Source: Gemmatimonadota bacterium
GTDB taxonomy: Bacteria; Latescibacterota; UBA2968; UBA8231
Reading direction: 5' to 3'
NCBI GenBank assembly: GCA_018673255.1
Contig: JABHDC010000124.1
Coordinates: 20,400-84,399, forward strand
Length of the DNA stretch: 64,000 nt
Shown piece by piece: positions 52,281-53,573 of the stretch (its first letter is position 1; every line of letters starts with the position of its first letter). The notes below the pieces were generated by a model that saw only the letters and a program-made list of their open reading frames with translations, did no database searches and was not told the DNA's origin. The translations under genes were made by a program, and so were the position numbers.

Positions 52281-53573
52281 TCAGGCGGATGCCTGTTGCT
52301 CACGCATCGCTCGCTCTACTTCCTCAGGCGTCTTGCCCTGCTGTATTGCCGCGACACCCTCGATGGATGCCCGGTAACGGGCCTCGGTCTCAAGCAGATC
52401 CTTGTTGAACCGAGTCTCAAGGGCCACCATGACGTGGTCGGGTGTGTCTCCGGCGGCCATTCGCTCCAGGCCCAATCGCAGGAGCGGATCGTTGGCTTTC
52501 TCGATGAACCTGTCGAGTGAGCCGAGTCCAATCTGTCGATTGAGGTAACCCATGTCGGTGAAGAGTGCCGCGATCTCGGGGTAGTCCATCTCGGCCAGGG
52601 GTGTATGCAATCGGTTTTCGAGTCGGGCCTCGATCTCCTCTGGCGTCTGCTGGGCGGGGCGTTGGGCCGACACCGGTGCACGGTGGTCGACGAAGAAGGT
52701 CCCCAGTTTGTGGTGGACGATGCGTGGGTTGTCGCCGGAGAGGATCGACATCAGCGCCTCGATGACCATCTTGCCCCGGATTTCCAGCCCACCCAGGATG
52801 GCGTGCTGAAGCCGCGTTTCCAGGATGTCGACGACCAGATCCGGCTCGGTGCCATCGACGATCAGATCCAGTGATTCGCGCACGAAGGGTGACGCGTCGA
52901 TGACGTCGAGCGCCAGAATCCCTTCACGCCGTGCCAGGTCAGCCATGTCCCTCCAGAGTTCGACAATCTCGTCGAAGCTCATCTCGTCCAGCCGGCGGGC
53001 GGCGAGCCTGGCGAAGGGAGGGGGCTGAGGCTTGGGCTTCTCTGCGGAGGGTGCTGGTGGTCTGTTTCCGTCCGGCCAGGTGAACTGCCCTCGCGCGGCC
53101 AGTTGGGCGGCATTCCCCAGGAGACGGTATTGCGCCTCGGCCACCTGCTCATCAGAGACGGGCCCCAGGAAACCGATTTCCTCCTCGAGGAAGCCGTGCA
53201 GGCGATCCGATACACTGTCCAGGAATCGGTTCCGCAGTGTCTCGGTCGCCCGCGACAGACACACGACAATGTCACGTCCGTCCGATTCCCGCAGAAGGAC
53301 GACGAGATCGCGGTGGCTGCAGCCAACCAGTCGCTCGAAGTCAAGTGTCGAAACGGTGCGCAGCCAGTTCCAGTCCTTGAAACCGTGCTGCGTCGCCACG
53401 ACGTGCTGGGCCTCGGTCAGGACGATCGGTTCCGGGGTGACATCTTCCCCCAGGCGGGGCAGATGTTGACGGACGAGGGCGATCGCTTCTGCGTCGCCGG
53501 CCTGGTAAGCCTTGAGCAGATCTTTGGCCTGCTTCTTGTACTGCTCAAGATTGTGCGTGGGCTGTGCAGACAT
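52281..53573 (-). CDS. FliG_C-MotA_cyt-MotA_cyt fusion protein
   Basis: A 430-aa soluble protein with no membrane helix. Residues 8-72 resemble the helical N-terminus found in ankyrin-associated proteins (YKKQAKDLLKAYQAGD). Residues about 74-166 are FliG C-terminal-like: R124, E131 and E132 match E. coli FliG R281, D288 and D289, with GPV at 137-139; K264 and R297 positions are Ser. After a Pro-rich linker, 197-294 resembles the MotA cytoplasmic loop plus C-tail (LARREGILALD, SPFVRESLDLIVDG, IEALMSILSG) with the membrane hairpin missing. 326-424 is a second such copy (NRQIGLGSLDRFIE). R215/D223 and R346/D354 match E. coli MotA R90/E98. AAGGAG lies eight bases upstream. Confidence 0.8.
   Translation of the reverse strand: MSAQPTHNLEQYKKQAKDLLKAYQAGDAEAIALVRQHLPRLGEDVTPEPIVLTEAQHVVATQHGFKDWNWLRTVSTLDFERLVGCSHRDLVVLLRESDGRDIVVCLSRATETLRNRFLDSVSDRLHGFLEEEIGFLGPVSDEQVAEAQYRLLGNAAQLAARGQFTWPDGNRPPAPSAEKPKPQPPPFARLAARRLDEMSFDEIVELWRDMADLARREGILALDVIDASPFVRESLDLIVDGTEPDLVVDILETRLQHAILGGLEIRGKMVIEALMSILSGDNPRIVHHKLGTFFVDHRAPVSAQRPAQQTPEEIEARLENRLHTPLAEMDYPEIAALFTDMGYLNRQIGLGSLDRFIEKANDPLLRLGLERMAAGDTPDHVMVALETRFNKDLLETEARYRASIEGVAAIQQGKTPEEVERAMREQQASA

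Follow-up and report, generated by a model that had tools for sequence, protein, structure and literature searches.

A natural soluble protein combining the FliG torque domain with two MotA cytoplasmic domains, a candidate modulator of the flagellar motor in Latescibacterota

Results

A soluble protein carries rotor and stator domains

The DNA analyzed here (the window) is a 64-kb stretch of contig JABHDC010000124.1. Its reverse strand carries a gene for a 430-residue protein (P0001; Table 1), which the first-pass annotation had described as a fusion of the FliG torque domain with two MotA cytoplasmic domains that have lost their membrane hairpins. Independent evidence from sequence, profiles and structure supports this description. 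The FliG_C domain scored 56 bits against the Pfam family PF01706 (cut-off 23.3) and was FliG-like in both sequence and fold. Neither FliG_N nor FliG_M was among the four Pfam families listed for P0001 up to an E value of 10; both were detected in the FliG encoded at 57468 of the window. In profile comparisons MotA repeat 1 was matched at 99.9% (E = 1.6e-35), with a gap in the match at transmembrane helices 3 and 4 (TM3-TM4), and MotA repeat 2 at 98.3% (E = 2.8e-14) and against repeat 1 at 99.5%; the match of repeat 2 by fold alone was weak. In sequence and profiles both repeats resemble the TM2-TM3 loop plus the C-tail, thus the cytoplasmic torque-generating domain of MotA. The peak hydropathy of P0001 over 19 residues was 1.15, and the four MotA membrane helices with the ion channel are accordingly missing.

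P0001 stayed below the equivalog cut-offs of both parent proteins, with 37.9 bits for FliG (TIGR00207, cut-off 226.7) and 65.4 bits for MotA (NF005997, cut-off 340), a value that the MotA proteins of nine completely searched genomes also failed to reach. Pfam, NCBIfam and PADLOC contained no family spanning the entire hybrid protein, and its N-terminal residues 1-73, which we call the N-cap, matched zero Pfam families above cut-off. The possibility that the pieces are unrelated helical repeats, joined by chance or by an assembly artefact, is hardly credible, as it is contradicted by the profile matches obtained for the FliG_C and MotA regions and by the many full-length relatives from several sources.

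Table 1 Features of the hybrid gene and its surroundings in the window
Feature	Position	Strand	Basis
Hybrid gene, 430 amino acids (P0001)	52281..53573	-	Open reading frame starting with ATG
N-terminal helical module (N-cap), residues 1-73	53355..53573	-	Sequence search; relatives with other domains
FliG_C torque domain, residues 77-164	53082..53345	-	PF01706
Torque helix, residues 123-135, with R124/E131/E132 at the FliG R281/D288/D289 places	53169..53207	-	Alignment, predicted helix 123-135, conservation
Pro-rich linker, residues 167-195, middle part of low confidence	52989..53075	-	Sequence; lowest block of per-residue model confidence (pLDDT) at 171-180
MotA cytoplasmic repeat 1, residues 196-297 (R215, D223), without TM3/TM4	52683..52988	-	Profile comparison
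MotA cytoplasmic repeat 2, residues 311-427 (R346, D354)	52293..52643	-	Profile comparison
Shine-Dalgarno sequence AAGGAG, ATG 7 nucleotides downstream	53581..53586	-	Sequence
Sigma-70-like promoter TTGTCA-16-TATACT	53713..53740	-	Consensus match only
Switch cassette (context, outside the hybrid gene): FliN, FliN-like, FliG, REC-FliM, short FliG	56887..60972	+	Pfam for 56887, 57468, 58782 and 60286; 57211 by similarity only

The hybrids form a family under purifying selection

A protein search returned 104 proteins at E ≤ 1e-3, including 27 close relatives (P0002-P0028) that have all or parts of the hybrid architecture. When the search was repeated with a broader alignment, 155 proteins were obtained at E ≤ 1e-10, and the best 120 of these 155 added, for example, a member from Coatesbacteria (P0107). 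Full-length relatives were numerous and at most 61% identical to P0001. The alignment A1 comprised the query and 18 of the 27 nearest relatives; the short P0004, P0017, P0018 and P0025, the two-FliG_C protein P0020 and the single-repeat proteins P0022, P0023, P0024 and P0026 were left out.

Four architectures were seen in the fetched loci and proteins: N-cap-FliG_C-MotA-MotA, N-cap-FliG_C-MotA (310 amino acids), N-cap-FliG_C-FliG_C-MotA-MotA, and a membrane MotA followed by FliG_C. Proteins of the last kind (P0030-P0035 and L119 7983-9116) are natural membrane MotA-FliG_C fusions, with the order of the artificial construct of PMC11302681. In three genomes, overlapping gene pairs (L117 7983-9135, L125, L132) encode FliG_C alone (96-144 amino acids) and then N-cap-N-cap-FliG_C.

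Compared with SZUA-1027, the ratio of non-synonymous to synonymous changes per site (pN/pS) was 0.39 for the whole hybrid gene. In each of two pairs of hybrids it was 0.20-0.47 across all four domains, a range expected under purifying selection; synonymous sites were close to saturation. Hence, the hybrids are a real family under purifying selection, with members from Coatesbacteria as well as from the Latescibacterota phylum group, and the domain order does recur in other genomes, a check that the first-pass annotation had proposed.

Genomes with clear hybrids have FliG-sized frames, and most have FliF

The phylum of G001, titled Latescibacterota, comprised 64 genomes, some of the others among them being titled Gemmatimonadetes; one locus survey covered the best 80 of 202 places. 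Clear hybrids occurred in at least six of the 64 genomes (G001, G002, G003, G005, G007 and G009); among the matches listed, G034 and G064 had only fragments. FliF was found in 24 of the 64, including five of the six clear carriers, and FliG-sized frames were present in all six, which are related to each other.

The nine completely searched genomes G001-G009 contained 9, 11, 12, 3, 5, 6, 10, 1 and 19 FliG_C matches, respectively, counted as domains and with hybrids included. Seven of them had one open FliF frame, G006 had two and G005 none; ordinary full-length MotA (above 200 bits) was present in five of the nine. Thus the seven hosts of soluble hybrids (the nine without G006 and G008) combine 3-19 FliG_C matches with at most one FliF frame each. 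The idea of an adapter between motors, put forward in the first-pass annotation, is therefore unsupported, six of these hosts having a single FliF frame and G005 lacking one.

The two MotA repeats keep different halves of the charge pair

PMC6079164 assigns primary importance to FliG R281, D288 and D289 and to MotA R90 and E98, and a secondary role to FliG K264 and R297; there, torque is linked with E98-R281, and assembly of the stator with R90-D289. The alignment confirmed that R124, E131 and E132 of P0001 occupy the three primary FliG places, as had been proposed, and these places were kept across the hybrids. In 42 hybrid FliG_C domains (only copies sharing the first 80 letters were removed, partial proteins were included and two-FliG_C proteins counted twice) Arg was found at the 281 place in 39, an acid at 288 in 33 and at 289 in 38. 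The corresponding numbers for the comparison set, 31 FliG-sized frames taken from fetched loci, were 26, 29 and 30. At the secondary places the two sets differed: Lys occupied the K264 place in 17/42 hybrid domains versus 31/31 FliG-sized frames, and at the R297 place a single hybrid domain had Arg and another one Lys, versus Arg in all 31 frames.

For the MotA repeats, 41 two-repeat hybrid sequences were reduced to 30 at 90% identity. Repeat 1 carried Arg or Lys at the R90 place in 25/30 (one was gapped there) and an acid at the E98 place in 24/30. In repeat 2, Arg was kept at the R90 place in 29/30, tied as the second most conserved column of the repeat, whereas the E98 place held an acid in only 4/30 and Arg or Lys in 9/30. 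The half-sites are thus shown to be asymmetric: of the two MotA places, E98 keeps its acid in repeat 1 and R90 its arginine in repeat 2. P0001 is one of the four proteins with the acid in repeat 2. Consequently, its striking second loop is real but is not a family feature, and two first-pass claims, that each repeat retains the Arg/acid pair and that the second repeat strongly resembles the E. coli MotA loop, hold for the window protein and not for the family.

A conserved torque helix and a degenerate repeat 2 would also suit a protein with a single working side, a decoy for the stator whose FliG_C head binds genuine MotA while the repeats serve as a stalk. We consider this quite unlikely, since the arginine of repeat 2 persisted while the rest of that repeat mostly drifted, and since both the acid and the Arg of repeat 1 were kept in most hybrids.

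A single-chain pincer as a possible mode of action

According to passages of PMC11302681, MotA with FliG_C was solved by means of an artificial MotA-FliG_C fusion; FliG_C docks between adjacent MotA monomers, this pair grips it, and charges at the ends of the torque helix meet neighboring MotAs. PDB entry 8ucs is, judged by its title, taken to be this structure. Passages of PMC11087270 likewise place the torque helix in a cleft between MotA subunits. Since one chain unites FliG_C with two MotA domains whose half-sites are asymmetric, and since a MotA pair is reported to grip FliG_C, the hybrid looks like a covalent single-chain pincer. The tandem MotA domains may form a pair equivalent to two neighboring stator subunits; if one neighbor needed only the acid and the other only the arginine, selection could leave the asymmetry observed between the repeats. 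In a closed form, FliG_C would dock between its own two repeats, with the acid of repeat 1 facing R124 and R346 facing E131/E132. In an open form, the MotA pair could grip the FliG_C of the rotor, or the FliG_C head could plug the stator cleft. In this way the hybrid might serve in the cytosol as a clutch, brake or decoy for the flagellar motor, possibly under the control of its N-cap.

A cytosolic rotor/stator modulator is, in our tentative judgment, the most likely reading of the sequence data, although its probability lies somewhat below one half. Possible but doubtful is the fuller version, in which the hybrid would be a minimal covalent rotor-stator complex with the charge pair split between the MotA copies, would act as a switchable clamp toggling between self-grip and motor-grip, and would be one product of a broader process by which Latescibacterota turned rotor and stator domains into soluble regulators.

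Several observations weigh against a role at the motor. The single-repeat proteins (P0022-P0024, P0026) and the two-FliG_C forms (L002, L126) deviate from a strict 1:2 pincer; the passages of PMC11302681 are silent on which MotA neighbor gives which residue, and the half-site match is therefore our inference; the overall confidence of the P0001 model (predicted template modelling score, pTM = 0.62) leaves its domain packing unfixed. The hybrid gene appears to have its own sigma-70-like promoter (consensus match; one observed versus 0.2 expected in shuffled sequence), and the exact sigma-28 consensus was absent throughout the window. Co-occurrence of hybrids and flagella is not independent evidence, the carriers being related. 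No FliF match was obtained in G005, G034 and G064, possibly through incompleteness; FliG-sized frames are present in the first two of these, and a MotA match in G064. The motor of the uncultured host of P0001 was not itself seen, the 64-kb stretch being the part of its genome that was analyzed. Among the loci whose open reading frame lists were inspected by eye, no hybrid lay within a flagellar operon. Finally, the N-cap is not motility-specific: in the eight other N-cap proteins scanned it was accompanied by ankyrin repeats (two proteins), a T2SSE ATPase, a PhyH-like domain, a PcfJ-like domain or a bifunctional nuclease (BFN) with Clp_N (one each), while nothing was detected at E ≤ 0.001 in the remaining two.

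The promiscuous N-terminal module and the absence from flagellar operons in the loci inspected also favor the main rival, according to which the domains have left the motor and now serve other pathways, of signalling or stress, as a scaffold for protein binding, just as the N-cap is reused with ankyrin repeats; the torque-helix contact would be left as an internal lock. Such reuse is further suggested by G060, another genome from this phylum group, in which FliG_C is part of a 1373-residue propeller/SpoIIE protein, plainly a signalling protein, and also precedes a weak SnoaL-like match. However, the primary torque residues were kept in hybrids about as in FliG-sized frames, and FliG was present alongside clear hybrids in six of six genomes; we therefore regard scaffold reuse as possible, though rather unlikely. 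The presence of both contact halves in one chain would also permit head-to-tail self-assembly, with the MotA pair of one molecule gripping the FliG_C of the next to build soluble oligomers or filaments that have nothing to do with the motor, and variants with two FliG_C and two MotA domains would suit multivalent assembly. The flexible linker, however, should favor self-docking over chaining, which makes this outcome improbable.

Relation to known proteins

The cytosolic modulator that we favor would be built from the motor's own parts. The hybrid shares with the FliG C-terminal domain the sequence, the fold and the primary charged places, but has no FliG_N or FliG_M match, rarely keeps the R297 place and is fused to MotA domains. 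With the MotA stator subunit (NF005997 and kin) it shares the TM2-TM3 loop and C-tail, present twice; unlike MotA, it carries them in tandem in a soluble chain without membrane helices or channel, and in 26/30 no acid stands at the E98 place of repeat 2. To our knowledge, the flagellar brake YcgR is not made of FliG_C or MotA and has no domain in common with the hybrid. Its likeness, as a soluble cyclic di-GMP-dependent protein reported in parts of PMC10140304 to contact MotA and FliG, is a functional analogy only. The same applies to the EpsE clutch of Bacillus subtilis, a soluble, glycosyltransferase-like protein acting on the rotor, which passages of PMC3000366 do not describe as carrying motor domains. 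Another close counterpart is the artificial fusion of PMC11302681, in which, as far as its passages describe, the rotor torque domain is likewise tethered to MotA by a linker; that construct is engineered, membrane-bound and ordered MotA-FliG_C, whereas the hybrid is natural, soluble and ordered FliG_C-MotA-MotA.

In line with the first-pass annotation, which was aware of no described protein with this domain order, we found no description of a FliG_C-MotA-MotA protein in the open-access literature, only the artificial fusion among the matches listed, which in several searches were 10-20 out of hundreds; subscription papers and most preprints were outside the scope of this search. PMC12505986 on MotA evolution, searched by word, mentions neither a fusion nor a soluble form nor Latescibacter, and in passages of PMC4454575 Latescibacteria are reported to have flagellar genes, with neither FliG nor MotA named. 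We call the hybrid architecture categorically new; if the protein is a brake, it would perform a known task in a new way.

Among the contacts of the flagellar motor, the FliG-MotA grip is the central one, and it is hard to study because MotA forms a pentamer in the membrane and the rotor is a large ring; an artificial fusion was needed, according to passages of PMC11302681, to obtain the published complex. With a natural soluble chain that has both sides, ordinary biochemistry could address this contact, what each charge does and whether two neighboring MotAs are needed. Should the chain act on the motor, it would represent a new kind of motor regulator. The hybrid also shows that rotor and stator domains are freely recombinable, as do other domain arrangements found in this phylum.

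Genomic neighborhood and switch cassettes

The hybrid gene lies 3.3 kb from the switch cassette of the window, on the opposite strand, and two G009 hybrids are about 4-6 kb away from a FliG. Within the window cassette, FliM (58782-60329, +) has an N-terminal receiver domain (REC, PF00072, E = 3.3e-20), i.e. a built-in CheY-like domain; by eye, Tyr stands at the place of the phospho-acceptor Asp, and the domain may be a pseudo-receiver. The following 228-residue FliG (60286-60972, +) overlaps the end of FliM and has FliG_C and a weak FliG_M match only; a relative in L115 is 69% identical.

Cassettes resembling window positions 56887-60329, with FliM and mostly FliN and FliG relatives, were seen in L101, L111, L114, L116, L129, L160 and L162, the last with FliM and FliG parts only. 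Those in L111, L114 and L116 all belong to G009, a genome with one FliF frame. In L111 (6580-9354, +) a single 924-residue chain contains FliM, FliMN_C (two stretches) and full FliG, thus a one-gene C-ring. The regulator-propeller/Y_Y_Y/SpoIIE protein mentioned above (L160 2832-6953, -; FliG_C at residues 546-638) adjoins FliM-like and two FliN-like stretches and so takes the FliG slot of a switch cassette. In L169 (4647-5447) FliG_C is followed by the SnoaL-like match, which was below its cut-off.
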